From Sabellastarte sp. h YS-2021 (Eukaryota > Annelida > Polychaeta > Sabellida > Sabellidae), in assembly GCA_964017235.1 (NCBI GenBank), contig OZ024936.1, positions 88,324,537 through 88,388,536 of the forward strand: DNA of 64,000 nt, in the 5' to 3' direction. How positions within the stretch are numbered: the stretch's first letter is position 1; each line of letters opens with the position of its first letter. Position numbers and translations under genes: made by a program. A model generated the notes under the pieces. That model saw only the letters and a program-made list of their open reading frames with translations, was not told where the DNA came from and did not search any database. This document shows, in pieces, positions 3,176 through 38,300 of the stretch.

Positions 3176-3255
3176 ATTCTGGTTCTTTAAGTTCCTCATC
3201 CTGTTTGGTATCTGTGTGGGTGCCTTCTTCATCCCACAAGGACAATTTGAAACAG
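3176..3255 (+). CDS. SERINC exon: early transmembrane helix ending in the FFIPQG motif
   Basis: An 80-bp internal exon after TTTCTGTTTCAG and before GTGAGA. It enters at codon position 3 and leaves one base. It reads FWFFKFLILFGICVGAFF then IPQGQFET, the conserved SERINC segment in which a hydrophobic helix is followed by IP(R/D)G. Its final G joins CC of the next exon to encode Ala, giving ETAWMW. The preceding coding exon is not in the window: the sequence to the left is satellite and transposon. The exon is unusual in that a Helitron-like terminus ends 21 bp before it and another element starts 45 bp after it. Confidence 0.9.
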
Positions 3256-12690: not shown

Positions 12691-12828
12691 CCTGGATGTG
12701 GATTGGGATGATTGGAGGGTTTGTCTTCATCTTGATTCAGCTGGTTCTGATTGTGGACTTTGCTCATGCCTGGAATGAGAAATGGCTGGAGAATTATGAG
12801 GAGTCACAGTCGAAGTGGTGGTTTGCTG
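12691..12828 (+). CDS. SERINC exon: TM helix with the DFAHAWNE motif
   Basis: A 138-bp exon after CTATTTTTAG, with donor GTGAGT. The first two bases complete an Ala codon. It reads WMWIGMIGGFVFILIQLV, LIVDFAHAWNEKWLENYEES and QSKWWFA. This is the most recognisable SERINC signature: a helix ending in QLVL(I/L)(I/V)DFAH.WN. It ends with one base of a Gly codon completed by the next exon. The intron before it is 9.4 kb and almost entirely repeat. Confidence 0.95.
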
Positions 12829-14132: not shown

Positions 14133-14306
14133 GCCTGATGTTCTTCACGGTATTCTTCTACCTTCTGTCCATCACGATGGTCGCGCTGTTCTACGTGTTT
14201 TACACGACCGGGGCACCATGTCATCTGCATAAGTTCTTCATCAGTTTCAACATGATCCTCTGCGTCATCTTCAGCATCATGTCCATCCTGCCCAAAATAC
14301 AGGAAG
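14133..14306 (+). CDS. SERINC exon: two TM helices ending MSILPKIQE
   Basis: A 174-bp exon after TACATTTTCAG, with donor GTGGGT. It encodes two hydrophobic segments separated by a short loop with one Cys ([16 protein letters not shown]), then [19 protein letters not shown]. The ISxNMxLC...MSILPKIQE block is diagnostic of SERINC. It leaves one base, G, that pairs with CT of the following exon to give Ala. The exon is GC-richer than its introns, as the other SERINC exons are. Confidence 0.95.
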
Positions 14307-16247: not shown

Positions 16248-16397
16248 CTAATCCCCGCTCTGGGTTACTGCAGTCCTCCATCATGACTACCTACGTGATG
16301 TATCTGACCTGGTCCGCCATGACGAACAACGAGGATCACCGCTGTAACCCAACCATAGGCGAGATTCTCAACAAGACCAACATACCGATTGACGCTG
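16248..16397 (+). CDS. SERINC exon: RSGLLQSS / YLTWSAM segment
   Basis: A 150-bp exon after GTTGTCCTCGCAG, with donor GTAAGT. It reads ANPRSGLLQSSIMTTYVMYL then TWSAMTNNEDHRCNP, followed by an extracellular-type loop containing NKT, a possible N-glycosylation site. RSGLLQ(S/A)S and YLTWSA are near-invariant in SERINC proteins. Phase 1 in, phase 1 out. The preceding intron carries two MITE-like elements. Confidence 0.95.
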
Positions 16398-17738: not shown

Positions 17739-17817
17739 CGGGTTCTACTGGTGTATCCTTTGACTGGGCGAGCGTGGTTTCTCTGGTAATCTTCCTGGTC
17801 TGTGTCCTGTATGCCAG
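17739..17817 (+). CDS. SERINC exon: TM helix before the variable cytoplasmic loop
   Basis: A 79-bp exon after ATTCCATTTCAG, with donor GTAGGT. It reads AGSTGVSFDWASVVSLVI then FLVCVLYA, a single helix. It ends with AG, the first two bases of a Ser codon. Each of the four alternative downstream exons begins with one base (C or T) that completes AGC or AGT. This is the fixed 5' partner for all four alternatives. Confidence 0.92.
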
Positions 17818-17890
17818 GTAGGTGCTTCACACATCATCTTAATATCAGTTCTGTTGATGAACTACTGGGGCCATATTCACAAATGGTATC

Positions 17891-18011
17891 TGGGCTGGTA
17901 TTCACAAAAGGGATCAAGCTCAAGTTGGGCTCAAGTTCACAGCTGTTTATACCGTAGTTGAGCTGATTTTTGGCTCTACTTGATCTTGATCTCTTTTGTG
18001 ATTACGGCCCA
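17891..18011. mobile_element. Palindromic MITE, GGTATTCACAAAAGGGATCAAG family, copy 1
   Basis: Starts TGGGCTGGTATTCACAAAAG and ends CTCTTTTGTGATTACGGCCCA. The interior repeats CTCAAGTTG(G/A)GC and AGCTGATTTTTGGCTC in inverted form. Homologous to 18863-18985 and 60087-60219. Confidence 0.75.
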
Positions 18012-18138
18012 AAGGAAGAATGACCCAGAGGTCGGGTTAAGAACATTATAAAAAATCTCTCTCTCAGTGCTTTGGCCATTCCTATTTTGTGAATACCTGT
18101 GCCCCTAGAAAACCCCACCCCGTGAAAATTCTTCCCCA

Positions 18139-18784
18139 AGGGCCGGATTCATGAAAGGTCTTAGCCAAATCGTACTCTTAACTTGGCTATATTCGGGTTA
18201 CAAATGTCATTTCATTCAAGTAAATTGAACTTCAACAAAATCTAGTACATAATTTTTTTATATACTTAGTTTGAAACATTTGAAACTGAAAGTTATAGTT
18301 AACAGAAAGACTTTGAAAATGTTTAGATGAGAGTAAATAAACACATAACATGAAAATTGATAAAATATGCAATAATAGAAATGACTTCTTTTTAAACTGC
18401 TAAATCTTTTCAAAATGCAAGGGGCAGCAGTTGTCTAACTTTTAAACAGGTAATTTGAAAATTAGCTGCTACAATAGAAAACCATTTTTGGTTTTGACAG
18501 ATGTTTAACATCATTCCATGTACCAGTAACTCACTGGCAGCATATTTTGAAAAAAAATAATAGATTTGATTTTGTCATAGTTAATTGTGATCAAAGTTCT
18601 TACCCTCTCTACATGCCTTTACTGTGAAGTCAGGCTTGTAATATTGAACAGGATTAAAAGGCCATTGCATACTTTTGTGGGGGATGTATTGACAAAAGGG
18701 TCTTATCCAAATCTTAGGCTTAATATTGTCTGTATTTGTTTACAAAAGTTAAGCGTGGGTAAGACCTTTCTTGAATACAACCCC
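18139..18784. mobile_element. MITE with GGCCGGATTCATGAAAGGTCTTA ends
   Basis: The left end reads GGGCCGGATTCATGAAAGGT and the right end AGACCTTTCTTGAATACAAC, imperfect inverted repeats that extend inward through CTTAGCCAAATC / AGCGTGGGTAAG-type text. About 650 bp and non-coding. Confidence 0.6.
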
Positions 18785-18862
18785 TGGTATTATTTTTAAA
18801 GTATGTCTCCCCTCTCTCCAACCTTTGAGTGAAAGTATTTAAAAGCAACTCGCCTTAAATTA

Positions 18863-18985
18863 TGGCGCCATATTCACAAAAAGGATCAAGCTCACGGTGA
18901 ACCAAAAATCAGTTCAATCTTAGTATAAACCTGAGCTGATTTTTGGCTCAACTTGAGCTTGATCCCTTTTGTCAATACCAACCCA
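18863..18985. mobile_element. Palindromic MITE, same family as 17891, copy 2
   Basis: CCATATTCACAAAAAGGATC at the left and GATCCCTTTTGTCAATACCA at the right, with AAAAATCAG(T/C)TCAA and GAGCTGATTTTTGGCTCAAC inverted inside. Confidence 0.75.
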
Positions 18986-18989
18986 GATG

Positions 18990-19135
18990 GTTCATAGGTA
19001 TGGCATTCGGTCACTTTACTGTCACCTTAGTGGTTGTGGGTTCGAGTCAAGCTTATCACAACATGCTGGATGCACTGAGAGGGCTGTTGAGATATGACTT
19101 TATCTGTTAAAAAGAATGACCTTGAAAAAAATTAT
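18990..19135 (+). mobile_element. Possible tRNA-derived SINE fragment
   Basis: GTGGTTGTGGGTTCGAGTC is a good pol III box B, and a weak box A-like GGTATGGCATTCGG lies upstream. It resembles the tRNA-headed SINEs at 39390, 52183 and 61294 in spacing but its tail is not recognised. Confidence 0.4.
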
Positions 19136-19586
19136 TATTGAAAGTATATTAATCCAAAAATATAGTCTCTTTTTGTAAACTTTTTCAAATAACAGATCTG
19201 TTTTGCTCGGCATAAGGGGCCGGATTCACGAAAGGTCTCAAGTCTCAAATCTGAGATTTTTGTCTCAAATCTAAGATTTATCTTAGATTTTTCTCAGATT
19301 TGAGACCTTTTGCTCAGCTGGGATTCACAAAAGATCTCAGGCTGAGATTTGGCTCAGATTTGGTCTCAAATCTAAGACTGCCTAGGGGTAAGTTTTCATA
19401 AAATAGAGTATATGTAGTTACAAGTCTCAAAACAAAATGAAAATTGCCAAGTATGACATATTTATATTTTTAACACAAAAACATGAATATTTACTAAAGA
19501 GTTTGTATGAAAACAACAGTAATACATTTACATTCAATTTAGTAATTTACATGAATGGTTGCTTTTGCTGTTTTAATCAGTTATTG

Positions 19587-21676
19587 TATCCACCGGATGC
19601 TTTGGTTTAGCGTCCGCTACGCCGCCGCGCGCAGAGAGATTTTCGGCGTTAACGCTCTAAGAGGAAAACAACAGCAGCTAGGTTCACCAAATTTGCAGGA
19701 TATCTTCATTGGGGGGTAAGCTTCTCTGGGAAGGAAAATAGCCTCATTCTGAAAAACAAGATGGCCGCCACGGGCATTTCTTTGAAAATAATCTACATTT
19801 TTCTACTGGCTGTTCCTCATAGGTAGAAGGTTGAATCTCTTCATAGGTGATATGTATGACACATATACATGTCCTCTATAACCTTGCACACATTTGACCT
19901 TGAAGGTCCTAATTCAAGGTCATCCACGGAGTGCCGAAGTAACCCACATAGCGGACTTTAAAAGTGCCTATATCTCCCTTATTATTGGTCCTAGAGGTTT
20001 GCAATGTGAAGCCAACCTATAGGAAATCATGTGCTGCGAATCTTCTGATGTGGTCACATTTGACCTTGGGCCCCTCCTTCAAGGTCAAACGAGGACAGCC
20101 AAACTTAAAAGTGCTTATAACTCGCTTATTATTGGTCCTAGAGGTTTGGGATGGTAAACCAGCATACAGAAAATCATGGGCTGGGAATCTTCTGGTGTGG
20201 TCGGATTTGACCTTAAACCCCTCCTTCAAGGTCAAATGAGGACAGCCAAACCTAAAAGTGCTTATAACTCGCTTATTATTGGTCCTAGAGGTTTGGTATG
20301 GTAAACCAGCATGTAGAAAATCATGGGCTGGGAATCTTCTGGTGTGGTCGGATTTGACCTTGGGCCCCTCCTTCAAGGTCAAATGAGGATAGGCAAAGGT
20401 AAAAGTGCTTATAACTTGCTTATTATTGGTCCTAGCGGTTTGGGATGTTAAACCAACCTATAGGAAATCATGGGCTGGGAATCTTCTGGCGTTGTCGGAT
20501 TTGACCTTGGGCCCCTCATTCAAGGTCAAACGAGGACAGCCAAACTTAAAAGTGCTTATAACTCGCTTATTATTGGTCCTGGAGGTTTGGGATGGTAAAC
20601 CAGCATATAGAAAATCATGGCCTGGGAATCTTCTGGTGTGGTCGGATTTGACCTTGGGCCCCTCCTTCAAGGTCAAACGAGGATAGCCAAAGGTAAAAGT
20701 GCCTATAACTTGCTTATTATTGGGCATAGAGGTTTGGGATGGTAAACCAACATATAGAAAATCATGGGCTGGGAATCTTCTGGTGAGGTCGGATTTGACC
20801 TCGGGCCCCTCATTCAAGGTCAAACGAGGACAGCCAAGCTTAAAAGTGCTTATAACTCGCTTATTATTGGTCCTGGAGGTTTGGGATGGTAAACCAGCAT
20901 ATAGAAAATCATGGGCTGGGAATCTTCTGGGGTGGTTGGATTTGACCTTGGGCCCCTCCTTCAAGGTCAAACAAGGACAGCCAAAGGTAAAAGTGCCTAT
21001 AACTCGCTTATTATTGGTCCTAGAGGTTTGGGATGGTAAACCAACATATAGAAAATCATGGGCTGGGAATCTTCTGGTGAGGTCGGATTTGACCTTGGGC
21101 CCCTCATTCAAGGTCAAACGAGGACAGCCAAACTTAAAAGTGCTTATAACTCGCTTATTATTGGTCCTAGAGGTTTGGGATGGTAAACCAGCATATAGAA
21201 AATCATGGGCTGGGAATCTTCTGGTGTGGTCGGATTGGACCTAAAACCCCTCCTTCAAGGTCAAATGAGGACAGCCAAACCTAAAAGTGCTTATAACTCG
21301 CTTATTATTGGTCCTAGAGGTTTGGGATGGTAAACCAACATATAGGAAATCATCTGCTGGGAATCTTCTGGTGTGGTCAGATTTGACCTTGGGCCCCACG
21401 GTCAAGGTCAAATGAGGACAGCCAAACTAAAAAGTGCTTATAACTCTCTTATTATTGGTCCTAGATGTTTGGGATGGTAAACCAACATATAGGAAATCAT
21501 GCACTGGGAATCTTCTGGTGTGGTCGGATTTGACCTTGGGCCCCCTTTCAAGGTCAAATGAGGATAGCCAAACTTAAAAGTGCTTATAACTCGCTTGTTA
21601 TTGGTACTAGAGGTTTTGGTGCATTGTCTTTACGGTGGATACAATTTGCATCGGTTCTCCGATGCGCTAGGTCTAG
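19587..21676 (+). mobile_element. Helitron-like element (TATCCACCGG subfamily), complete, nested
   Basis: 5' TATCCACCGG (19587), a leader with GCCGCCGCGCGC and CAAGATGGCCGCCACGGG, an eleven-unit 147-bp array, the inverted motif CGGTGGATA (21633), the hairpin GCATCGGTTCTCCGATGC (21648-21665) and GGTCTAG followed by T. The leader is shared with 25485-26497 at high identity. No coding region. This fits a non-autonomous Helitron/Helentron (HINE- or pearl-like) with a central minisatellite. Confidence 0.75.
19970..21612. repeat. 147-bp tandem array, about 11 copies
   Basis: CT(C/T)GCTTATT starts at 20121, 20268, 20415, 20562 and 20709, exactly 147 bp apart. Two alternating unit types are visible (GACAGCCAAACTTAAAAGTG and GATAGCCAAAGGTAAAAGTG), hinting at a two-unit higher-order repeat in part of the array. 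Because 147 is a multiple of three, both strands stay open over long stretches. Confidence 0.96.
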
Positions 21677-22061
21677 TTTTGTATGCCAGTACAAATTATA
21701 GTAAAAAGAAAACATTTTACTTGATAGAATATATTATAAAATGTGAGTACATGTGGTACAGCTGTAAATATAAATGTGTATGCTTGACACTGATCTCAAC
21801 AGAATGTTACATCAATTTTGATTGGCTCAGACTCAAAACATGTCTGAGATTTTGGTCTCAGCTAAGATCCCTTTCGTGAATCTCAACTTGAGCAGAATCT
21901 CAGCTGAGACAAAAATCTCAGATTTGAGCAAAAATCTGAGATTTGGCTAAGACTTGAGACCTTTTGTAAATCCGGCCCCAGGATGTTATAGTTGTTAATG
22001 TCTTTGTTAGTATTATATACCATCTTTTATCGTACAGTACCTTTTTACATATTTAGTACGA

Positions 22062-22162
22062 GGGGATATATTCACCGAAAGTCTTAGCCAAATTGCAGGT
22101 TTAAGTTTGTGTATAAAAGTTAAGCCTAAGAATTGGCTAAAGACCTTTGGTGAATACTGCTG
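22062..22162. mobile_element. Short palindromic MITE (ATTCACCGAAAGTCTTAGCC)
   Basis: ATATTCACCGAAAGTCTTAG and its inverted partner CTAAAGACCTTTGGTGAAT flank AATTGCAGGTTTAAGTTTGT / AAAAGTTAAGCCTAAGAATT. Related to the ends of 18139-18784 and to 54389-54805. Confidence 0.65.
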
Positions 22163-22356
22163 CAGATTCTTGTCTAATTTCAGCATGCTTTTGTTATAGA
22201 AAAAGCGCTATATAAGAACTATGTAATAATGTAATAATATAACTTATATGACTTAGACTGTGCCACAGCAATGATAAAGTAAAGTTTTAAGTTAATTAGA
22301 GTGTATTGTAATGGCCTTCACATTTGACCTGTGGTGACCTTTTCCCTTTCTTAAAG

Positions 22357-22436
22357 CGTCCGTTCTAGCGCTTATAGTCAAATTGGAAAGCTGACCTTGT
22401 CTTCAAGTGAGAAGACATTAATGGAGTCTGCTGCGG
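22357..22436 (+). CDS. SERINC alternative loop exon, copy 1
   Basis: An 80-bp exon after CCCTTTCTTAAAG, with donor GTGAGT. With the upstream AG it reads SVRSSAYSQIGKLTLS then SSEKTLMESAAG. It matches the cytoplasmic loop after the upstream helix in other SERINCs (a Ser-rich stretch, then KLTL). It needs two bases from the previous exon and gives one to the next, as the copies at 24688, 29503 and 31167 do. Its length is 2 mod 3, so including a second copy would shift the frame. Inference: it is one of a mutually exclusive set. Confidence 0.85.
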
Positions 22437-22994
22437 GTGAGTGCAGAGTACATATGTACCTAAGATAAAGTGCACATGTCCCCATGTAAAGTGCATGTTT
22501 CTGACCTGTTCATTGGCACCCAGAAAAGAGCACGTGTTTTTGATGTTATTGAATAAATGTTTTTCTCGTGTTCATTTTATATTTGTTTTTCAAAATTGTT
22601 GTAAGGAATGTTTTTGAATTTTTACTTCTGCGTGTTTTCCCTAAAACAGTTGTCTGTTTATTGTTGTCGTTAAGTTGCAGGAAGCAAAAGAATGTATACA
22701 CTGTCCAAAAGTTGTAGGACTTTTTGTGTTGTTCAATTTTTTTTATGTCAGCTGACATTATGGCATCACTCTGCGGCATCTGTGTATGCGTTTACCTAAA
22801 CAACTTATCCTCCGAAACTACAAGGCCCAGAGACATGCTGTTAATTTTGAAAGATACCTTATCTATCTGGGATGAAAAACTGTTCAAGGCCTGCAGATGT
22901 GTTTGTTCGTCTGTTCCCCAGAACCATTACAATTGAGGTACCCCCTACCCAAAGTGTCAAAATTTTCTCATTGACTATTGCAGGGTATGAGTAT

Positions 22995-23128
22995 CAGGCC
23001 TGGATCTGTGTTAGTTATTTTTTTATGAATTTTTAAAATAATTTTTAATGGATTAAAATTCAGGCCTGGATCTGTGTTAGTTATTTTTTTATGAATTTTT
23101 AAAATAATTTTTAATGGATTAAAATTCA
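22995..23128. repeat. Exact 66-bp tandem duplication
   Basis: CAGGCCTGGATCTGTGTTAG... at 22995 is repeated at 23061 with no visible difference over the whole unit, so the duplication is recent. Confidence 0.93.
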
Positions 23129-24280
23129 TGAAATCATGGACTAAATCACTTATAACTTCAAAAGTATTGCATTTAGAGCATTTTGTTAAAATATGTTATT
23201 CAGCCACTTTTTCTATGGCTACAACTTGATGAATAACTTGGGTGTCTATCCGAATAGCCAAACGAGTAATAGCTACATTATGACTTTTCAATACCTTCCA
23301 TAATGAGTAAAATCATTTGTAACTTGAAAACTATTGCATTTAGAGAATTTTGTATAAATATGTTATTCAGCTACTTTTGGGTCAGCTTTAACATAGTAAA
23401 ATTGCAGACCTGTAGCTCACGGCATAGCAGAGTAATAGCTACTTTGAGGTTTTCATTGTTGAGTAAATCAGTTGTAACTTGAAAACTATTGTAATTTAGA
23501 GAATTTTGTTTATGTTATTGATCTACTTTTGAATCAGCTAAAACATAGTAAAATTACAGACCTGTAGCTCATGGCATAGCTGAGCAATAGCTGTTTTCAG
23601 GTTCTCACTGTTGAGTAAATCAGTTGAAACTTGAAAAGTATTGCATTTACAGTATTTTGTTTAAATATGTTATTCACCTACTTTTGGGTCAGCTACAACA
23701 TAGTAAACTTGCAGATATGTAGCTCATGGCATAGCTGAGCAACAGCTACTTTCAGGTTCTCAGTGTTGAGTAAACCAGTTGTAACTTAAAAAGGTATTGC
23801 ATTTACAGTAGTTTATTTAAATAGGTTGTTCACCTACTTTTGGGTCAGCTACAACATAGTAAAATTGCAGACCTGTACCTCATTCCCTAGCTGAGCAATA
23901 GCTACTTTGAGGTTCTCACTGTTGAATAAATCAGTTGTAACTTGAAAACTATTGCATTTAGAGTATTTTGTTTAAATAAATTGTTCACCTACTTTTGGGT
24001 CAGCTATAGCATAGTAAATTTGCAGACCTGTATGTCATGGCATAGCTGAGTAATAGCTACTTTGAGGTTCTCACTGTTGAGTAAATCAGTTGTAACTTGA
24101 TAACTATTTCATTTACAGTATTTCTTTAAATATGTTATTTACCTACTTTTGTGTGAGCCATACCATATTAAAATTGCAGCCCCTTAACTGATTGCATAGC
24201 TGAGCAAAAGCTACTTTGAGATTCTCACTGTTGAGTAAATCAGTTGTAACTTAAAAACTATTGCATTTGCATGTTTTTAA
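23129..24280. repeat. ~155-bp satellite array, about seven copies
   Basis: GTTGAGTAAATCAGTTGTAA recurs near 23457, 23610, 23765, 23924, 24075 and 24231. Units contain TGTAACTTGAAAACTATTGC, TTCACCTACTTTTGGGTCAG and GCAGACCTGTAGCTC, and so are homologous to both the 133-bp unit and each half of the 321-bp unit. It lies in the intron between alternative SERINC exons 1 and 2. Confidence 0.92.
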
Positions 24281-24687
24281 TATACTTTTTACACCAAAAC
24301 AGTTACCTTATTACTTAACTTCTGAATACCATTAGCAGGACACAACTTTTGTGTCCTTTTCTTCTGCCACTTCTACTCTGAAACTCGAAACACACAGTCA
24401 GCTGACACAGAGCCCATTCACAGGCACTGATTGCTTGTTTTTTATTAATATTATATTGGTTTTGTTACTCATTTAACAGAAAACAACAACACACTACATA
24501 CTGTAGAAATTTCAAATAAAAAATTGTGAATCACCAAATTTAAGTCTTAAATGTTGAATATCTGAAAAATACACAAATAGTTGATGACTGTTTTCATCTT
24601 TGCTTTCAGCTATGGGTCTGAAAGAATAAACTCATTGGGTTTTTTTAAAAAAAAAACCCTCAAAAATTATGGTTATTTTGTTTCCAG

Positions 24688-24767
24688 CATTCAGTCCAGC
24701 TCTCACACCCATGTGGGCAAAATCACGGGTCAAGATTACATAGAGAACACAACAATCGATGAGAAGG
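24688..24767 (+). CDS. SERINC alternative loop exon, copy 2
   Basis: An 80-bp exon after TTTTGTTTCCAG, with donor GTGAGT. With the upstream AG it reads SIQSSSHTHVGKITGQ then DYIENTTIDEKG. It aligns at its start with the other three copies (S-[VI]-x-[ST]...K-[LI]). Its end, IENTTIDEKG, resembles copy 4 (IEETTIIDKDENKG), so copies 2 and 4 look like the closest pair. If it were joined after copy 1 the frame would break within the exon, so it must replace copy 1. Confidence 0.83.
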
Positions 24768-24829
24768 GTGAGTCACCCCGTAACCATGGTTACCAGATGT
24801 TCAAGGGGATTTTTCTTTATACAGGATGA

Positions 24830-25484
24830 GTGATCATAAAGATGCAACACAAAATATATTCTTTGATTTGTATTGGGCATGACATTGGCTTAGGCTACCA
24901 TTGGGAAACACTGTACATAAAAACGGGGAAATGATGAGGGTTATACATAGGAAAACTGGGGTTGGGGTTGAATAGTGTTTTCTGTTGTTTTTTTTTTATC
25001 AAATGTTTTGTAAAGCTTCTCATAAAATTAGCCAGAGTAATAGTTTTATGTATAAGACATGCACCAAATTCTGATTGAATCCATTTTCAATTCTAAATCT
25101 TTTTTTTATGCCGGATTTTTGCATTTGGCCATGTAAAATAGTTAGATAGTTGTTAGTAAGAGGTCCCAAGCAAAAACAAATTCAAATTTCTAGTCTGAGA
25201 TAACAAATAGCATAGAATGATAAATGTAGCAGGGAAATATGTAAAAATGTCAAGGAATATTTTGTGGTGCATTTTTTGTGGCTGAAATCAAGTTCCTTAT
25301 GTTACAGGGTAGGTGTATTTACAAAGAGGAAGTTTATTTAAAATATGGACAAGTTAACTGACTGAGTATACAAAATTAACATTTACCCCCTGTCTGACTT
25401 TTAACTGTTCTCATGGACCTTCATCTTTCTGGAGTTACAAGTCCAGATGTTATGTAACATCAGCAGGCTGTTAATATATATTTT
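24830..25484. other. SERINC intron, no recognised feature
   Basis: AT-rich intron downstream of alternative exon 2. No exon copy, repeat or RNA gene recognised. Confidence 0.4.
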
Positions 25485-26497
25485 TATCCACCGGAAGCTG
25501 GTCGAGGCTACCGCCGCCGCGTGCAGTGAGATTTTCGGCGTTCACGGTCTCAGAGGAAAACTACACCAGCTAGGTTCACCAAATTTGCAGGATATCTTCT
25601 TTGGGGGGTAAGCTTCTCTGGGACTGAAATTAGCCCTCATTCTAAAAAACAAGATGGCCGCCACGGGCATTTCTTTGAAAATGATCTACATTTTTCTACT
25701 TTCTGTTTCTCATAGGTGGAAGATTGAATCTCTTCATAAGTGATGTGTCTAACAGATATACATGTCCTCTACAAATTTGCAGACATTTGACCTTGAAGCT
25801 CTGAATTCAAGGTCATCCACGGAGTGCCAAAGTAACCCACATAGTAGACTTTAAAAGTGCCTATATTTCCCGTATTATTGTTCCTAGAAGTTTGCAATGT
25901 GAAACTAACGTATAGGAAATCATGTGCTGTGAATATTCTGATGTAGTCAGATTGGACCTGGGACCCCTCCTTCAAGGTCAAACGAGGATAGCCAAACTTG
26001 AAAGTGCTTATAACTCGCTTATTATTGGTCCTAGTGGTTTGGGATGATAAACCAACATATAGGAAATCATGGGCTGGGAATCTTTTGATGTAGTCAGATT
26101 TGACCTTGGACCCCTCCTTCAAGGTCAAACGAGGATAGCCAAAATTAAAAGTGCTTATAACTCGCTTATTAATGGTCCTAGAGGTTTACAATGTGAAACC
26201 AACCTATACGAACTCATGGTCTAGGAATCTTTTGATGTGGTCAGATTTGACCTTGAGCCCCTCCTTCAACATCAAATGATCACGGCCAAACCTAAAAGTG
26301 CTTATAACTTGCTTATTATTGGTCCTAGAGGTTTGCAATGTAAAACCAACTCATAGGAAATCTTGGGCTTGGAATCTTCTGATGTTAGATTTGACCTTTG
26401 GCCCCTCCTTCAGGGTCAAATGATGGTTCACTGGCTTTGGTGAGTTGTCTTTCCGGTGGATAGAAAGTTGCATCGGTTCTCCGATGCGTAGGTCTAG
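25485..26497 (+). mobile_element. Helitron-like element (TATCCACCGG subfamily), complete, second copy
   Basis: TATCCACCGG at 25485, the same leader as 19587-21676 (AGATTTTCGGCGTT, AACAAGATGGCCGCC), a shorter array of about four 147-bp units (25850-26430), CCGGTGGATA at 26453-26462, the hairpin GCATCGGTTCTCCGATGC (26470-26487) and GGTCTAG followed by T. Its 3' hairpin is identical to that of its sister element. Confidence 0.75.
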
Positions 26498-27110
26498 TTT
26501 TTATTTGAATTACCAAAATTGGTGTGATATTTTTTTACTTCTGCCATCTTTATTCTTTAGCACTTGCCGCTGGTTCAGATTTGAGATTCAAAATTGATAT
26601 TAACTTACACTGAAATACAGACTGGCATCTTTTGCTCTAGACCTGTAACACTTTTGAGTTGCAGGTCAGGTGGAAAGGTTTTCCATAGACTTCGTACACT
26701 GCATATGTATATTCTTGAATTAATTCTCACCTTCTGTGAAGGTCAAATGTGGGTTTTGACAGCATATTTGAAACAACTTGTACAGAAAATCATTATTTGC
26801 ACTTTATATATAAATTGACTTGAATTTCTGTTGATTATGATATTCATTTCCACAAGCGCAGGACATAGATGCACTTTTTACTCTTTACTGGATGACAATA
26901 CAATTTTTACATGAAGTCGGTACCCTAAATTGATATATCACACAATCAGCATCCAGCGTACAAACCATAATTTTGTATCAGAGATCCTAATTAAGTTGAC
27001 TTCACTGTTTTTGGTACATGTGAAATAAATACTAGCAACCTTTTGCAATAAAGTCTTTTAAGTAAAGTTCCTCAAAAAAATTAAGTTCAGATCAAAATGT
27101 GCACACTCTA

Positions 27111-27519
27111 CAGTGGAACTTGTATTATACATCCATGTTGGGGAAGAAAGATTTTGTTTAAATAAAAGAAAATTCATAATACTATAAGAGGTATAGTTAC
27201 AGGCGGTTACAATCTACACAAAATTTAGAGCATGAATTAGAGGCTTATGTCACCACAGGTGTAACATGACAGAATGATTATATAAAATCAACTCAACTTT
27301 ATCTGTGAATAATATTGCTGTTTTAATGGTTGTTTGGGGAAATTACAAATTAAATGGCTGTTCACAGAACAACCATAGTTTTCAGCCAGTCCAATTCCAG
27401 AGACTGCATTATTGTGTTTATGGTATATTACAAATAATATTCCATTTTGGGAGGGTGGAAATGATGGCACAAAAGCAATGTCCGGATAACAGAAGGATAG
27501 TATAATAAAGGTTCCGCTG
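27111..27519. mobile_element. Tc1/mariner (pogo-like) MITE with TA target duplication
   Basis: Starts CAGTGGAACTTGTATTATAC and ends TATAATAAAGGTTCCGCTG. The inverted ends match over about 24 bp with a few differences, and TA lies on both sides (27109-27110 and 27520-27521). 409 bp with no transposase. Confidence 0.72.
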
Positions 27520-27879
27520 TAAGATACCCTACCCTCCAGAAGTTTGAAGCCACAGCTAAAATCGTGCGTATTAATCTTTTTTTAAAATTTTCTTTCTTTA
27601 CTTCAGTAGTGTGGAAACAAGCTAGACACAAGCTTCCATCAGAGGGTGTCTTATAGTGTCACTAACCTTGTGCAGTTATCAGTGCACAAAACACAACCCT
27701 GTTCTTGAATTTTACAGAGTGTATTAACCAAAAACATTTTCACAACACATGGATTGAAAACAAATACATTGTACAATAGAACTTCTTAAATCTGACCATT
27801 TTTTGGACAGCAAGATTTTTGGTCGGGTAGTAGAAGAGTGTTAAAATAGGAGAGGTAGCCAAGTATGAGACAGAAAGAA

Positions 27880-28620
27880 ACTAAGGATTGGTCGTTGGAT
27901 CCGGTATTGTGGTATCGGGAGCATTTTTCTGAAGTACTGTGATGACACTTTACAACTAGCATTTCGCTTGGCAACAAATATAATTGACGAAAAATTTAAA
28001 TAGAAAAACAAATGCTTTTAGACTGCTCCTTTCGCAGTAGTGTACTCTAGAAATAATTGTTAGCCAAACTTTTTGTTGAGTAAGAGGGAGTAAGGAAACT
28101 AGTCATAGGTCAGTGAACCCGGTATCTTAGTATCCAGGACATTTCACTGAAATACTGTGATGACACTTTACAACTGGCATCCTCACTTGTCAACACAAAA
28201 AACTGAAGGGAACTTAAAAATAGTAATATAATTAGACCTTAAATCTGAAGAAAATGTGAACTTTTATCACACATTTTTGTGCATTCGGAATCTGTTGTAG
28301 TAATTTGGTTGTGCAGAACTGCCATGGTATGGTTTCATGAGTTTCACTTTCTATTTTTGGGGGGATGTACCCTGACACATCATTTTCAGGAATTCTGATA
28401 TTGCAATGGTTTTGCATTGATGAGATACCAACATGAAAGATATGCGGACTGATCTGTACTGAAAACAAATGTTTGAGAGAGTGGGCGAGATGACAACACC
28501 TCCAGTATTGCTTTTGAGTGCAGTGATAAATTGCGTACAAATTCCTGTATCCAGACAGTCATTCAGATCACCACCAAAATGTAATCACATGTTCCTTAAA
28601 TATTTCAAAATCTTCATCTT
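27880..28620. repeat. Two tandem-like copies of a dispersed repeat, plus a LINE-3'-like fragment
   Basis: GGTATTGTGGTATCGGGAGCA at about 27901 and GGTATCTTAGTATCCAGGACA at about 28121 start two homologous stretches (..TACTGTGATGACACTTTACAACT). At about 28550-28618 the CCAGACAGTCATTCAGATCA text belongs to the ATAACCTCCTT family. Related copies lie at 12870 and 54850. Confidence 0.55.
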
Positions 28621-29340
28621 AGAAATGAATTGGAAATAAATATGTAATACTGCATTTGTCAATATTGTTCACTCTAGGTCTCAAACGTGAACCAATAATA
28701 AATACACAGTACGCTATAGAATGTCTGCAAATATAAATTATTGTCAATCCCTGTTTTGTGACAAGGGTTAATAAATCCACATTGGACTTAACGATAATAT
28801 TAACATCCATGGAAATATTTGCAGCCAATTGTGAAAAGCCGATCATATTTACTGTTACAATTTTTCAAAGACATGTTAGCCAACCAGTCTATTGTGCACA
28901 TTTGGTGCAAGCAATCAAATGACCTGATTTTGAATGCACAAGGTTGTGAATGTTTTTGTCCATGGTGCTGATTTTACTAATACTTCTTTGCTTTCTTCCC
29001 ATTAACATGATGATATTATCCCTGTAATTGTCACTCCAATAAGTAAAAGCTACATTTATTAAATCACATTCTTTACAAGTAACTATGATAACATTCTGCT
29101 GTTCCGGTCTACTTTTTCCTCAAAGTATTTCAAAATTTAAGAGTGGAGAGAAAAAGGCAACATAAACAGTGGTGGATTATATCATTGTGTGGATGGAATT
29201 TCATAAATACAGCAAGGGTACTACTGATACTAACTTTCTGTGCATGTCAGTAAAATTTTGTGAATATATTGATGTTGTTGTGTGTTACAAAAACAGACTT
29301 TTTATTTTCTTTTGTTTGTCCTGTTGATTTCTTGTGTTTG
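28620..29340. other. SERINC intron, no recognised feature
   Basis: AT-rich intron; no exon copy or repeat recognised. Confidence 0.4.
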
Positions 29341-29343
29341 TCC

Positions 29344-29396
29344 CCTGTATAAGGATTAGTGGAAATTCTGATAAAAAACTCACAGTCATAAGGAAG
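29344..29396 (+). pseudogene. Vestigial fifth copy of the SERINC alternative exon
   Basis: This resembles the first half of the exon at 29503: TATAAGGATTAGTGGAAATT against TATAAAGAGCAGTTCCGACT, then GATAAAAAACTCACA against GATAAACTGACATTA. The upstream flank is also shared (TTGATTTCTTGTGTTT in both). The acceptor CAG has become CTG and a stop (TGA) follows KLTVIRK in frame. If a shifted AG (29352-29353) and the GTGAGT at 29396 were used, the exon would be 42 bp and the following exon would be read into a stop. It is therefore either dead or a frame-breaking exon. Confidence 0.6.
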
Positions 29397-29502
29397 TGAG
29401 TGCTAATAGGGTATCGTTCATGTTTTATTAGGGGCTCTCAATTCTTGTTTTTCAATTTTTTGGCATCTGGTTGATTTCTTGTGTTTCTCAATTCATCCCC
29501 AG

Positions 29503-29591
29503 TATAAAGAGCAGTTCCGACTTAGATAAACTGACATTAAGAGGCAGTGATTCAGAGGAAGTATTCATTGCTGATCCTAAAAGTAATGCGG
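29503..29591 (+). CDS. SERINC alternative loop exon, copy 3
   Basis: An 89-bp exon after ATTCATCCCCAG, with donor GTGAGT. It reads SIKSSSDLDKLTLRGSDS then EEVFIADPKSNAG, three codons longer than copies 1 and 2 but with the same entry and exit phase. KLTL-x-GSDS resembles the vertebrate SERINC3-type loop. A degraded partial copy, including its upstream intron flank, lies about 150 bp to the left. Confidence 0.83.
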
Positions 29592-30600
29592 GTGAGTAAT
29601 AATAGGGCACAGTGAGTGATAATAGGGGATATTGAGTGATAATTGGGAACTTGAGTGATAATAGGGGATATTACTGTATGCACTGTATGTTTAGAGTCTG
29701 CATATATAAATTTCGGTTTTCTTTGTGACCAAAAGGACTGAACAATATCGACTATAATTGTAAAAATATTTATAAAATTTTGTTTGACAATTCTATTGTA
29801 AAAATGCTTTCAAATTTCTAGATATACATAGTGCAGTTATACAGTTGTATAAAATTAGCAAAGTGTTATTGAACAAGACTTTTTTTGCATTGAAGCCTTG
29901 TATTATCCAAATATCATGTGACATTTTACATTGTACGAGAGAAGTACACGCTAGACTTCCTAGGCTTAATTCCACTGTATTTTTATACCAAAATGAAAAG
30001 CCCACAACTTTTCCAAGCCGTTTCATGAGTACCACCCCAGGATCAAATTTTTCCTTTTATCTTATTTTATGTTTGGATAAACTAATAAAGTCATAATCAA
30101 AAAAATATATTTAAAGCTAGGAATACATGACAATATCTTTGTAATTTCTGCCTCAGGCTATCAGAAACTAAGTATATAACTGGAAATTTTTTCAAATTCC
30201 TGGTGCATTTAAAGTTTGTATATATCTTTACTGTAAAAAACTGAAAAATTAAGCAAAATTTTCTTCAAGCTAAAGTTTGCACTTATACAGTGTCTTGTGT
30301 CACATTTGATACAAACGACAACAAATAATTGTTCCTCGCATGTTTTTACTAACAAATCCTCCTTGGGTGGGATTTTTGCTATATTTTGTTGATTTCTGTT
30401 GATATTTGGATATTGCTACAACAGTTAACAGCATTTAGAGATGTGCCATGAAGAATACTGTGTTAGCAAGTTCCAAGTTTTTTATTGTCCCCTATATACT
30501 TTCTCACAGTGCATGTTGGTTTTGATTTTTTGATTCACCGGCACATTTGTCACTTTGTGTATTTTTCTTACTATATACACCACAGTACATATTAGAACTA
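29592..30600. other. SERINC intron with a short TGAGTGATAATAGGG repeat
   Basis: Immediately after alternative exon 3, GAGT(G/A)ATAATAGGG(G/C)A(T/C)A is repeated four times (about 29593-29670), starting within the donor sequence GTGAGTAATAATAGGG itself. The rest is unassigned AT-rich intron. Confidence 0.6.
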
Positions 30601-30603
30601 CGG

Positions 30604-30943
30604 TAGACTCTGTATAACTAGATCTCACTTTCCTCCTATTTTTGAAAAACCAGGAAAGTTTAGGCCATTTTGTTATGTCAAAGAGAGACTACATATTATT
30701 TACAGAAATCTAAATTCAGATGCATTTTGTCTAGCCCTAAAGGTAAGGTATGTTTAAAAAATAGGAAATTGTAAACCAGTGGAGTTTTTCTACACAGGGT
30801 ATGACATTACACCCATGTGATTCTACCATTCAGATTCAGCCTTACTGTTTACTTTACCTAGATGTGCTGTGGCTTCTGATACTGATACAGTGCTTGTTAC
30901 ATCAGTATCAATGCTCACCATAGTTCGAGTTATACAGAGTCTA
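30604..30943. mobile_element. pogo/Tigger-like MITE
   Basis: TAGACTCTGTATAACT at 30604 and AGTTATACAGAGTCTA at 30928-30943 are perfect 16-bp inverted repeats of the kind seen in pogo-related MITEs. The outermost bases and the TA duplication are eroded. Confidence 0.65.
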
Positions 30944-31059
30944 ACAGAATTTCCAGGATTTTACCATTTTGCTCTCAATGTTGTTCTTGTTTCACCTAAT
31001 AATAATACACTTGGAACAGGTATGGTTTAGTGACTCTAGGCTGTGATGAGGGCCAGAAA

Positions 31060-31082
31060 TTTTTTTTTTTTTTTTTTTTTTT
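31060..31082. repeat. Poly-T tract (23 nt)
   Basis: Uninterrupted T run about 85 bp upstream of alternative SERINC exon 4. Confidence 0.9.
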
Positions 31083-31166
31083 GAATTTCCAGCCTTGGAA
31101 AAAAAAATTATAGTTTATTGGATAGCACTTACAACGAGCATCGGCTCATTGTTGTGTATTCTGCAG

Positions 31167-31264
31167 TATCATGACGACCAATGCCAGTTCTATGGGCAAA
31201 CTCATGATGAAGTCAGATCCTGATATTGAGGAAACGACCATAATAGACAAAGATGAAAACAAAG
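31167..31264 (+). CDS. SERINC alternative loop exon, copy 4
   Basis: A 98-bp exon after GTGTATTCTGCAG, with donor GTAGTC (a weaker donor than the others). It reads SIMTTNASSMGKLMMKSD then PDIEETTIIDKDENKG, the longest and most acidic of the four. Phase 2 in, phase 1 out, 98 = 2 mod 3. The acidic cluster (DPDIEE, DKDENK) would give this isoform the most negatively charged loop. A long poly-T run lies about 85 bp upstream, separated from the acceptor by other sequence. Confidence 0.82.
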
Positions 31265-33323
31265 GTAGTCCAGGCTTTGTGCAACAGGAAATTAAAATGA
31301 CATCATGGCTTACTATGTGCACTAAACATAGTTTTTCCAAGTCTTGATTGATTTTAACCCCTGATGATGCTGTAGTATTTAGAAACCGGCCAATCTAGAA
31401 GTTGGGGCCGTGCTATCTGCTTCTGTACAAATTGAAATTTTAGCTATTTTAGTGAAAATTAATTCCCAGTAAAATTTTAAATATATATGGATTTTCTTAA
31501 GTAGAAATGGGCCGTTATTGAAAGTTTAATTCTAGTGAACTGCCCTTCGATTAGTCAAGATTGACTCCAAAGAGAAATTTATAAATTGTATTTTGCTCCC
31601 CTCAGAAAGTTTTTTGCATAAAGGTAGGCAATCATTTTCATCCCATCCGAGCTCTAACTGCGAATTTGTTCATAAGCTTTCAGAAAATAGAAAAGCAATT
31701 AAACTATAGCATAGTGTTGAAGATGGTAAACTGGAAATCTATTTGCCGAAAGACACTGATCCGGTTACATTTCGTTTTCTTTTAACAAAAACCGGTTTCA
31801 TGACATATTCATTATTTTATCTTAAGTTTACCAAAATATTCAACTACAACAATATACGTCACAGTATTTGATAATATTCTATAAATATATCACATATTTT
31901 GTGATCGAAAGTCTTCAAAAAGCCTGTCATGGTTCTTATGTATATGCGAGTTATCGCTCATGTATGCAAACTTAAGTCTTCGCGTTTTAATAGATCAAAT
32001 GCACCCGGTTTTTTTTGCCGAATTTCCACTTTTGGAAACCGGTTCTAAAATTTGCATTTAACCACAACACTGCTATAGCATTTAACAGTTTCTTCATTTA
32101 TTATAACCTTTATTATGCACCACGCACCATACATGTCCAATATAGGTGGGGGGTGGGGGGGGTCAGCATGATACATTTTTTATGTCAGCTGACTTGTTTT
32201 ATATGGTAGCGCCACCTTGCGATGGATGATTTTTATAAACAAGTGGTGATTTTTCATTAATATTTCAGAAACTATGCAACCTACAAATATCTTATGTACA
32301 TGATTAGAAAGGTATTTTTACAGTGCTTAAAAATCCATGCAGAAATGCCACATGACATGGTTCATAAAAAATTTAAAAAAAAAAACATATCACAAATGAA
32401 GATGACATCCACAGCCATGGCTTAACCAGTGAAGTGGTTATTGGCTGGCTAGTGACAGACTGAACTTCTGTTATGTAAAGCCATGTTCTTGTTACAAATC
32501 AAATATAAATTGAAGATGCAGTTGAGACTCTGTCCTGGTTATTGCTTAGACAGCCCCCAACTAAACTGTCACAATAGGACAAACAGGACACGTGGTGGAT
32601 GAAAAAAGCATGTGAAAGAAAATTCATATTTTGATATGACTAATGATTGACTTATTGTTGTTTAATACAGTCCCTTCAGTTATTATAACCGCCATTGTCC
32701 AACCACGGTGGGAGGGTGAAATATTGACAGACGATGTCCCGGTCAAATAAAAGTGGCATTCTTAATGTAAGACACAAAGGAAATCAAAATTTGGAAGAAT
32801 GAAAATAAGAATACAGTGAGCATAATTAGTAATTTAGAATTTAGAAGGTTGAGTGATGGAGGTTATACTGTACATATTAACTCTTTTTGTTGGTGTTTAT
32901 TGGCTATATGTGTAGGAATTTGGATTAATGTGTATTAATTTTTCTTATAACTTAGATGCATGATTGTTATATATATATATTTAACACTCTGCAATATTAT
33001 TTAATTAAATTACTTGTTCTGATTACTGCTTCCTGTTATAACTTAGCACGTTTTTAAAAAGCACATTCTTATTTGTGGTATTGGCACAAGTGCAAGTTAC
33101 CAGTTGACTTCACCCACAAAGTTTATATCAAAAAAGAACACTCGGAGATTGCATACTTCCATGAAAGCCCAGAGCCTCAAATATTGCTCATGAGTGCAAT
33201 GTTAGATAAGACCACTGCTGCAGTGGTAGTCTTCTGCCACGTGTTACACAAAAGTGGAAGTAATAGGACCTGTACATGCGCAGACATGCACGGAAGGCAT
33301 TTCATACTCTGACTCTGAGGAGT
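31265..33323. other. SERINC intron, mostly unassigned
   Basis: AT-rich intron after alternative exon 4. It contains a MITE-end-like stretch near 32669 (CAGTCCCTTCAGTTATTATAA) and a TA microsatellite near 32970. I found no fifth intact alternative exon on either strand. Confidence 0.45.

Positions 33324-33355
<32 letters not shown>
33324..33355. repeat. Poly-G tract (32 nt)
   Basis: Uninterrupted run of 32 G on the + strand, followed by TTAAGATCCC. Able in principle to form G-quadruplexes; the exact length is prone to sequencing error. Confidence 0.85.
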
Positions 33356-33359
<4 letters not shown>

Positions 33360-33693
33360 GATCCCATTATGAAGCTCCTGGATCCAAATGATGATCCAGA
33401 TCACTACCAAAATGGAGTTATCTGTAAACGTACGCTGCTCAAAACATAACCTCCTTCGTGTATGTAGTAAAAACTTTCAGGCTATTTTTTCTTATATGAT
33501 GATATAATTTCCACTTAAAGTCAGTGTTCAGAATTTTGAATCCATGCTTAGAAAATTTCTGAATATTATCCAGGTATACTTGAAATCAGCTCCCCATATT
33601 GTCACAAAACTCCTCAAATCTGCATTAGGAAAATATACAAATTTAAAGTTATCAGTGCATTTGTATCATCACTTAGTCTATTATCAATTGTTT

Positions 33694-33869
33694 GTCAAAT
33701 GTATGTGAACAGTGCCCTTATTTACAAGATTCTCAGACTTTTCTTAAAACTCATTGATTAACTCATTTTTATGATTATGTCAAATGCATGTGAACAGTGC
33801 CCTTATTTAGTATACAAGATTCTCAGACTTTTCTTAAAACTCATTGATTAACTCATTTTTATGATTTTA
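33694..33869. repeat. 85-bp tandem duplication
   Basis: GTCAAAT(G)(T/C)ATGTGAACAGTG...ACTCATTTTTATGATT occurs at 33694 and 33779. The second copy has five extra bases (TAGTA). The copies are otherwise nearly identical. Confidence 0.9.
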
Positions 33870-35736
33870 TGCTTAAACTCAAACTTATCATAATATGGAA
33901 AATTCTTAAACTCGTCTTAAAAGTCCCACATAACTCATTTTCTGAGTTAAAACTAAAATTCAAAGAGAAATTTGGCTTCCTTTGTTTTCTTTGTTTTGCT
34001 TCTCTATGTGTGTGTATTTATAATCAAAGGCCCTTAACACAAACAACTCACAAACAACTTTTTGACCAGAAATAAAAACAGGACTGTGGTATTGACAAAA
34101 AAAAACAAAAAAACACTTGAGTTTAAGCATAAACTTAGAGGTTGATTTTTTGCTCATGTGTAAATTCTTTTGATTAATACTAATTTCAACATAATCTCAG
34201 ATAAGACAAAGACTGAGATTGTGTGTCTGAATTAAAGTGATCTTTGTAAATATGGGCCAAGAAATGCAGTGCAGACAAGTTCTCAAATTGAAATGTCCAA
34301 GTCTTGACAATGACAAAGTGTTGATTGCTATTCTGTATAAAGTTTTGTGCCAATTTGAGTTGTATGTTTAATTACCAGGCAATCAAGGCTGAAACTCAGA
34401 TATCAGAGATTCCTTACGCATTATCCAGCAGTACTTAGTCATTTAAATATCATGTGACAACAGCCAATATCTGGTACATTTAATTTGCCTCTAAATTAAA
34501 AACCTTCAATGTACAAAAAAAATCAATAATGAAATAAATAACTGTGCTTCAACAAATTTTCACTGTTTTATTGGGTTGTCTTTCTTTCAGCTTTGATTAT
34601 GAAATTCAAATTTTTTGTTATTGAAAAATTTTCTTGAGTGCCAGCTTTCTCTAGCTAACAATCAACTGCATTAATGTAGATATTTAAAAATTAAAAGTAT
34701 GTCAAATATTGTTTTGTGATGAATGTTCTTGTATAGATATGAGTAGTGAATGGTTGATATCTATAGACTTTCTTAAAGCCTGTAGTGCAGAGATCAGAGA
34801 GTATTTAATATCACTCATTACTCTGTTAGTTGTGATGCCAAAGTAGAAGTTTGTAACACAATCCTGTAATACATCACCAGCCTATTGGGTTTGTTTGTTT
34901 TTATAAATGAGACCTCTAATTGCATCAAAAGTGAGATTTAATGCGATTTTCATCTGGGAAGGAAAAGTTTGAATTGTGAATAACCAGGGGCCTATTTCAC
35001 TAAAGGACTTAAACTAAGTCCCTTTATTGGCTAAGCCAGGGACTTAAATCTAAGACTTTGGTCTTAGCTAGGTCTTGCACTTAAAATGGATTTCACAAAA
35101 GTGACTTAGCTAAGTCCAAGCTTATCAAATAACCACAGTGGTTTTTAGTCGAATCTTTGATTCGAGTTATGTACTGAGTTGCGGCCACGATTTTAAATTG
35201 GCCGTTTAAGCCCTTAAATACCAAATTCTGCATAATATTTCTTCACATATCTGTACATTAAGGTGTATATTATACACTCTGCCATTTTGAAGATTTTTAA
35301 TGCCTTTATTAAGTTATATTTTATGAAGTAAAAAGCATGTCTGGCACTTCGTCTGGCTTTCTCCAAGGACCCGTATGTCCTAGAACCTATTGTATTTCCA
35401 TTGTGATTTTCTACTCGAACGAGTCTTTTTTAACGGTTTCGTCTGCTGGTTTCTAGAGGTGAAACCCCAATTAATTTATTCGTCTGCAGGGTTTACCACG
35501 CAGTCACTGTTAATGTAAAATTGCTGTCTGCGCATCTACGTGTACTCAATTATTTGTCAAACAAATAAACCGCAAAGAAATTAATGAATGAAGTGACGTC
35601 ACGGTAGTACTACACATTTGTTATTAAGCCAATCAGAATCGAGAGCACGTCTGGCAGAGACAATGAAAATATTCAAACTCCGTAGTTCTACATTCAACCA
35701 CCAGAAGGCGCTTTTGTATGTTCTAGAAGTTATCAC

Positions 35737-36412
35737 GATGGGGTTTCTAACAACATTTTACAAATGTATAATCCAGCAATATTTTACTGTCACCGCCCCT
35801 CACTCTGTCTTCTCGCAATATTTAAAACAAATAAAATATCAAATGCTGGTAGTTGTACACCCACAGAGTGATGAAAACGTGAGGCTGCAATGGCGTTTCT
35901 AACAACATATTACAAATATATAATCCAGCAATATTTTACTGTCACCGCCCCTCACTCTGTCTTCTCGCAATATATAAAACAAATAAAATATCAAATGCTG
36001 GTAGTTGTACACCCACAGAATGATGAAAACGTGAGGCTACAATGGGGTTTCTAACAATATTTTAAATATATATAATCCAGCAATATTTTACTGTCACCGC
36101 ACCTCACTCTGTCTTCTCGCAATATTTAAAACAAAATATCAAATGCTGGTAGTTGTACACCCACAGAGTGATGAAAACATGAGGCTACGATGGGGTTTCT
36201 AACAACATTTTACAAATATATAATCCAGCAATATTTTACTGTCACCGCCCCTCACTCTGTCTTCTCGCAATATTTAAAACAAAATATCAAATGCTGGTAG
36301 TTGTACACCCACAGAGTGATGAAAACGTGAGGCTACAATGGTGTTTCTAACAATATTTTACAAATATATATAATCCAGCAATATTTTACTGTCACCGCAC
36401 CTCACTCTGTCT
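35737..36412. repeat. 148-152-bp tandem array, five copies
   Basis: TTTCTAACAA(C/T)AT starts at 35744, 35896, 36048, 36196 and 36344 (spacing 152, 152, 148, 148). Units contain GTCACCGC(C/A)CCTCACTCTG and GTAGTTGTACACCCACAGAG. Confidence 0.95.
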
Positions 36413-36413
36413 T

Positions 36414-36507
36414 GCGGGAGATAATACCAAGTTTACAGATTTCAACACCCACTGCTGTCCTAAGATTCGACGCTGTGGTTGGCAAAAAGCCAACCACTTC
36501 GCCCTAG
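36414..36507 (+). mobile_element. Helitron-like 3' end (GCGGGAGATAA subfamily)
   Basis: GCGGGAGATAA at 36414, then a perfect hairpin GTGGTTGGC..GCCAACCAC at 36475-36497 and TTCGCCCTAG ending at 36507, followed by T. The 5' partner TTATCTCCCGC was not found upstream within the TIR element, so this copy is probably 5'-truncated. Confidence 0.65.
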
Positions 36508-37070
36508 TCTGTGTCATGTGACCTTTTATATCTATTCAAAATATAATATTGGTGCCATATATCCTTCATGTGATGTATTTTATCTAAGGATAAGGGCTGT
36601 TTTGAAATGGAGAACCTTGTTGCCACATATAAACTTCCCAAAGACTACTTTAGTGAGGTGTTCTGTGTAATTATACTTTATTTACAGCCATTTCAAATTT
36701 TGAAGTGGAGAAAAGTTTATGGTGGCCATATTTAAGTCCTCTTTACAACATTTAAGCCCACTGCCTACCAGACTTAAAGTTAAGTCCACTTAAAGTTAAG
36801 TCTAAATCTGGACCTAAGTCCCTTTGTGAAATCGGCCCCAGAGTTACATACTATTAGATAAGATAAATCAATAGCAGATATCAGTCATTGCCCTATATGG
36901 TTATACTTTCAAAATTTCCTGTAAAATTAAAAACATGTCTTAATAATTAAATTTTTGTTATTCTTTTAAATTGTCTTCTTGGTAAAGAGCTGCTTTAGAA
37001 AATTCTAAGAATAATAATGATGTTTAGTATGCGCCCTGATATCAGTCAGTGTTTTTCTTTTCCCCTGCAG

Positions 37071-37212
37071 GCTCGTCAGATGATTCTGAACAGGCGGGTC
37101 AGAAGGTGTGGGACAATGAGGAGGAACAAGTGGCCTACAGTTACAGCTTCTTCCACTTCATGTTTACACTGGCCTCACTCTATGTCATGATGACACTGAC
37201 TCACTGGTACAA
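37071..37212 (+). CDS. SERINC exon: acidic loop end and YSFFHFM helix
   Basis: A 142-bp exon after TTTTCCCCTGCAG, with donor GTAAGT. The first two bases complete a Gly codon begun by whichever alternative exon is used. It reads [19 protein letters not shown], then [20 protein letters not shown] and MTLTHWY. The acidic segment followed by V.YSYSFFH(F/L)M...LASLY.MMTLT.W is strongly SERINC-like. It ends AA, completed by G to Lys. Confidence 0.95.
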
Positions 37213-38161: not shown

Positions 38162-38300
38162 GCCGGCGGACTCCTCCGACTACCTAAAACCCAACCAGCC
38201 GTCGATGTGGATTAAAATCGCCTCGAGCTGGCTGTGCATTGCGCTCTATGGGTGGACCCTGATCGCGCCGATAGTCCTGAAAGACCGAGAATTCAACTAG
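38162..38300 (+). CDS. SERINC last coding exon with stop
   Basis: A 139-bp coding part after TGCTTTTGTTCAG. It reads KPADSSDYLKPNQPSMWIKI, ASSWLCIALYGWTLIAPIVL and KDREFN, then TAG at 38298-38300. W.KI.SSW.C..LY.WTL.AP..L..R.F is the conserved C-terminus of SERINC proteins. No intron is needed after the stop. Confidence 0.95.

Follow-up and report, generated by a model that had tools for sequence, protein, structure and literature searches.

A probable array of four mutually exclusive loop exons in an annelid SERINC gene

SERINC proteins are lipid-scrambling membrane proteins. In the polychaete Sabellastarte sp. h YS-2021, a 64,000-nucleotide stretch of the genome assembly (C14:88324537-88388536; hereafter the window) holds the larger part of one SERINC gene on its plus strand. 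Within this gene, four homologous exons, m1 to m4, share one 19 kb intron between the constant exons U and D (Table 1). These exons probably form a true array of mutually exclusive exons, which would give the gene four alternative versions of the first half of intracellular loop 4 (ICL4).

The coordinates of m1 to m4, their lengths (80, 80, 89, and 98 bp), and their AG/GT borders agree to the base with a first-pass annotation of the window, as does its observation that the first base of each exon finishes a Ser codon and the last base opens a Gly codon. The encoded peptides are 28, 28, 31, and 34 residues long. Because U ends in phase 2 and D starts in phase 1, the slot between them takes exactly one exon of 2 mod 3 length. 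Translation of all 16 inclusion sets yields the native C-terminus from the four single inclusions and an early stop from the other 12, located 132-356 nt ahead of the last exon junction. The annotation's rule that exactly one copy keeps the frame holds for all 16 sets, but its arithmetic missed that four exons in series are also in the length frame (347 = 2 mod 3); that set meets a stop despite the kept frame. As in mutually exclusive clusters, m1 to m4 lie side by side as internal exons within a single intron, have valid splice sites (the m4 donor being weak), are homologous and similar in length, have equal phase at both ends, and keep the frame by single inclusion only. By the distance rule of nonsense-mediated decay (NMD), stops so placed in all 12 wrong sets would also suit exons that act mainly as poison exons, with double inclusion or skipping cutting SERINC output through NMD and the peptides mattering little. 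This reading is very unlikely: SERINC-like peptides would not be required of a poison exon, but all four exons score as loop peptides, and the m2 type is present in the open frame of a homologue, P0017 (homologous proteins are cited here by P number).

The scores come from a gapped scan of the big intron, in which 206 phase-correct AG..GT candidate exons were scored as loop peptides. The four exons scored 67.8, 53.3, 40.2, and 37.6 (m4 lowest), and the remaining four of the top eight candidates lay within m1, m2, and m3. The highest control scores were 22.1 among 216 minus-strand candidates, 21.9 among 252 downstream candidates, and 35.2 among 4215 candidates from 25 dinucleotide shuffles; m1 to m4 are the sole independent stretches among the 206 candidates that beat every control. 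In an ungapped scan, m3 was not distinct (-2.7, where one intron stretch scored -3.9 and a downstream control -3.2). Neither scan of the intron revealed a fifth copy. A genome-wide protein search with U-m1-D returned five matches. Three were exons of this gene (D, m1, and U), one was D of a paralogue, and one was weak (E-value 0.067); within the limits of the tool, no further m1-like copy was found. Recent duplication of the exons was considered and rejected: the strong m1/m2 and m3/m4 matches in their 1500-base flanks reflect overlapping windows and tandem repeats, and the top match apart from these, shared by the m1 and m4 flanks, has 18 bases (E-value 0.003). Where residues are identical between exons, the codons differ in 24 of 33 pairs.

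Alignment to solved SERINC chains supports the annotation's placement of the variable exons in ICL4. U ends helix 8, and the variable exons align to a 30-residue SERINC3 stretch. In the AlphaFold model of P0017, whose mean predicted local distance difference test (pLDDT) score is 78.9, helix 8 spans residues 256-285 and runs through the conserved exon head (the exon starts at 273). Block confidence is 73 for residues 271-280 and 50 for 281-290, and pLDDT is below 50 at 285-287, 289-300, and 302-310. The exons would thus swap the helix 8 terminus on the cytosolic side along with the flexible tail next to it, and each is predicted to encode this helix end plus the first half of the flexible ICL4.

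The acidic cluster of the loop lies outside the variable exons. The annotation had seen them as carriers of the acidic motif recognized by lentiviral Nef and clathrin adaptors. Such a Nef/AP2-type motif in the variable exons was rejected: SDDSE at the start of constant exon D aligns with SDEED of SERINC3, which is named together with EDTEE as an acidic stretch in SERINC3 work (PMC10359404), and the start of D has a net charge of -6 in 21 residues. As it is encoded by a constant exon, the acidic cluster is common to all forms. The variable peptides have net charges of +1 (m1), -2 (m2), -2 (m3), and -3 (m4), so that "strongly acidic" overstates the fourth copy (7 acidic and 4 basic residues). 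The delta-ICL4 SERINC3 chain 7rug lacks the segment from just after KLT to the end of the acidic stretch, which by alignment comprises the variable tails and the acidic cluster. In excerpts of the published work, helix 8 becomes ordered in delta-ICL4 SERINC3, which the authors took as a sign that ICL4 and the helices communicate (PMC10359404); ICL4 governs the Nef sensitivity of human SERINCs (PMC6117100, PMC10359404); and L350/I352 and S360 in the ICL4 of human SERINC5 matter for Nef (PMC10085909).

Homologues were the best 120 of 2842 and the best 120 of 285 matches, in order of similarity to the window gene carrying m1 or m4; their loop types are therefore not an unbiased sample. For loop-similarity scores, the loops of other species were cut by pattern, and the m1 to m4 peptides were entered as typed. 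The m1 peptide scores 89 with P0001 versus 41 with m2, and m2 scores 88 with P0017 versus 41 with m1. As judged by these scores, m1 and m2 are far nearer to loops of other species than to each other. P0017 comes from a 1436-base contig with a 388-residue open frame, so it is probably a spliced transcript, and that frame carries an m2-type loop. A tree built without the loop (146 of 152 rows, after dropping isoforms m2 to m4, P0004, and two short rows) groups the window gene with the annelids Capitella, Helobdella, and Dimorphilus (clades of 37 proteins, support 0.886, and of 40, support 0.943). Lamellibrachia joins at a weak node only (0.089), and Owenia falls outside the clade. Many nematode-named proteins among P0126-P0148 have the loop motif GKITG, like m2, and not the GKLT..SEKT of m1 and molluscs, through either common ancestry or convergence.

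The Dimorphilus gene model P0066 contains three loop copies in series in one reading frame. Copies 1 and 2 score highest with m1 (53 and 58), and copy 3 does so with m4 (51, versus 38 for m2). None of 2000 shuffles matches copy 3 as well as the m4 tail does, and the tails of m1 and m3 give no match. A predictor joining alternative exons may have produced this model, as the run MTLFYYP between the copies looks to us like a read-through intron. Taken as it stands, P0066 would favor serial inclusion in some transcripts, yielding long loops. That is highly improbable, the least credible of the alternatives considered here, because P0066 is a gene prediction and because any combination of two or more of the exons meets a stop in the window gene.

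Several observations weigh against four exons in regular, exclusive use. If the serial copies of P0066 are real, they contradict exclusivity in Dimorphilus, and the m2 tail also matches P0066 copy 3 somewhat (p 0.025). In the gapped scan, m4 exceeds the best shuffled candidate by only 2.4 (37.6 versus 35.2), and its donor, GTAGTC (31265-31270), reaches 4.2 bits versus 9.0-11.9 for the gene's other scored donors. Among 38 annelid-clade loops (the clade of 40 minus the window gene and P0066), the best-matching type is m1 for 30, m2 for three, m4 for three, and m3 for two, with margins of at least 10 for m1 (14 loops) and m2 (one loop) only. None of the 38 is a clear m3 or m4 match: m3, whose best partner is Capitella P0020 (56, although P0020 scores 70 with m1), has no clear orthologue among them. 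An additional protein search (the best 120 of 285 matches) gave no clear m4 orthologue, and a protein search with the m4 loop region gave one candidate, with none scored. The m4 donor, the missing m3 and m4 matches, and the P0020 scores would suit a gene in which only some copies work (m1 and perhaps m2), m3 and m4 being old duplicates that are rarely spliced or decaying. We consider this unlikely, though less so than the other two alternatives, as all four exons are open and in the right phase at both ends despite their codon divergence, and the m4 tail is matched by the third Dimorphilus copy. The claim of the first-pass annotation that the animal makes at least four isoforms is nevertheless not supported, given the m4 donor and the clade loops.

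Loop diversity across animals was examined by comparing ICL4 similarity between pairs of proteins binned by flank identity; the pairs are not independent. P0013 and Owenia P0057 were placed with the other animals in all comparisons, and Lamellibrachia P0122 was placed there for finer bins and loop typing but not for broad bins. At flank identities of 0.6-0.7, median ICL4 similarity is 0.32 in annelids (479 pairs) versus 0.51 in others (2022 pairs); at 0.7-0.8 it is 0.34 (190) versus 0.78 (1076), and at 0.8-0.9 it is 0.46 (24) versus 0.83 (136). A control variable loop gives annelid and other medians of 0.27 and 0.25, 0.29 and 0.31, and 0.55 and 0.43 in the same bins. At equal flank identity, annelid ICL4 is thus mostly more diverse than that of other animals. 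The gap shrinks in small bins of close pairs, which tells against this pattern: at 0.75-0.8, annelids reach 0.60 (12 pairs) versus 0.78, and at 0.9-0.97, 0.89 (one pair) versus 0.90. Between annelid proteins with close flanks, the loops may be almost identical, entirely unlike, or intermediate. P0029/P0125 (flank 0.896) have a loop similarity of 0.86 and a control of 0.67, whereas P0005/P0025 (flank 0.873) have 0.33 and 0.78, and P0012/P0008 (flank 0.901) have 0.29 and 0.63. For P0084/P0125 (flank 0.892), the loop value is 0.18, but the control is low too (0.20). The diversity is consistent with the sampling, across many annelids, of transcripts that carry different alternative exons. The clade signal may also stem from fast evolution of the loop or from unrecognized paralogues.

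The splice signals offer hints on how one exon might be chosen. Given its weak donor, m4 might be used rarely or depend on an activator. Steric blocking is unlikely, as the introns flanking the copies measure 1.6-5.8 kb. A 40-base tile before D (36811-36850) pairs with the upstream flanks of all four exons at -21.5 to -24.3, outdoing all 12 shuffles as well as 15 control sets built from other exons and 25 random ones. Of six further exons of this gene, however, three pair with the tile about equally well, so a pairing specific to the array is at most a candidate. For the downstream flanks, the best-pairing tile is the acceptor tract of D itself. The 300 nt after U give no pairing signal (9 of 12 and 12 of 12 shuffles are as good). 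Competing RNA structures are absent from some mutually exclusive clusters, as one passage of the literature notes (PMC3923563).

If the array works as proposed, transcripts with skipped or joined exons, which stop early, would be expected to fall to NMD. The array would be old, with m1 as its ancestral-like default, and cells would choose one exon at a time under regulation. Exon choice could then tune how helix 8 and ICL4 control SERINC conformation, lipid scrambling, or partner binding, with the constant acidic cluster retained in all forms. A broader proposal is possible rather than probable: several exchangeable exon types of the helix-8-proximal half of ICL4 may predate the split of this animal, Dimorphilus, and the P0014/P0017 worms, with cells picking one and thereby setting the conformation of helix 8, on which lipid scrambling or partner binding by the otherwise fixed protein would depend.

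Arrays of mutually exclusive exons are known from other genes (PMC3228551). The Dscam and muscle myosin heavy chain clusters described there likewise consist of neighboring homologous exons that lie in a single gene, agree in frame, and are similar in length; the window array belongs to a different gene family and is seen in genomic sequence. Human SERINC5 is also alternatively spliced, but the isoforms described in excerpts of two papers differ at the C-terminal end and transmembrane domains and not by a homologous ICL4 exon swap (PMC10085909, PMC9851522). The ICL4 of human SERINC3 and SERINC5 lies in the same place as the array, between helix 8 and helix 9, with one loop sequence per solved chain compared versus four in the window gene. 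Drosophila TMS1d (6sp2) has VLTEALS in ICL4, which is absent from the fly sequence quoted in an excerpt of PMC8316019; this difference suggests splice variation in the fly loop too. In Crassostrea virginica, P0053, P0069, P0073, and P0074 are 0.998-1.000 identical outside ICL4 and fall into three types that vary in the same loop, by short inserts just after the loop-exon part. The TMS1 and Crassostrea variants, as deduced from protein sequences, would be short in-frame inserts and not exchangeable homologous exons. In line with the annotation, no prior description of a SERINC loop-exon array was found in open-licence papers, a search that did not extend to supplements or to databases such as Kassiopeia, whose paper gives its coverage as Arabidopsis, C. 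elegans, human, and 12 species of Drosophila.

Viral Nef proteins act on human SERINCs through ICL4, and helix 8 is reordered when this loop is deleted (PMC10359404). A gene that is constant except for the first half of ICL4 would be a natural experiment, with four loops on one scaffold. If used as proposed, the array would produce four proteins differing only in a control loop, and it would show that a single-slot codon-phase arrangement has been kept in a common membrane-protein gene across long annelid evolution.

The assignment of the gene to the SERINC family is confirmed by Pfam: the spliced model with m1 matches Serinc (PF03348) at E=1.7e-121 over profile positions 112-434 of 434. The nearest solved chains to the window protein are SERINC3 and TMS1d. 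The first coding exons lie upstream on C14, with the ATG near 88282036, and the last coding exon is in the window, so the gene spans about 81 kb. Invertebrates are said to have a single SERINC gene in an excerpt of PMC8316019, in contrast to the two loci in this genome (assembly of 1.79 Gb in 647 contigs). In the divergent paralogue, the end of the helix-8 exon and the start of the next exon have the same phases as U and D. No loop-exon array is visible there; two loop-like stretches score 33.8 and 25.6, and the good donor of the second gives the wrong phase.

Table 1. Exons of the window SERINC gene (window positions) and the second SERINC locus of the genome.
Feature	Position	Strand	Length	Remarks
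SERINC exon e1 (FWFFKF...)	3176..3255	+		first exon of gene within window
SERINC exon e2	12691..12828	+
SERINC exon e3	14133..14306	+
SERINC exon e4	16248..16397	+
Constant exon U	17739..17817	+	79 bp	helix 8 (VSLVIFLVCVLYA); end YA-AG|, phase 2
Variable exon m1	22357..22436	+	80 bp	peptide SVRSSAYSQIGKLTLSSSEKTLMESAAG; nearest to most loops of other animals
Variable exon m2	24688..24767	+	80 bp	peptide SIQSSSHTHVGKITGQDYIENTTIDEKG
Variable exon m3	29503..29591	+	89 bp	peptide SIKSSSDLDKLTLRGSDSEEVFIADPKSNAG
Variable exon m4	31167..31264	+	98 bp	peptide SIMTTNASSMGKLMMKSDPDIEETTIIDKDENKG; weak donor GTAGTC
Constant exon D	37071..37212	+	142 bp	start G|GC; rest of ICL4 with acidic SSDDSE cluster, then helix 9
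Last coding exon	38162..38300	+		with stop codon
Second, divergent SERINC gene	G000:C2:98629971-98672614	-		loci L009-L013

Pfam assigned no family to four other open frames of the window. A 147-base tandem repeat occurs inside the big intron as two arrays with similar units, one before m1 (19958-21616) and one after m2 (25851-26420). Tandem arrays of other periods are found at 1-2651, 8009-10076, 46616-47925, and elsewhere in the window.

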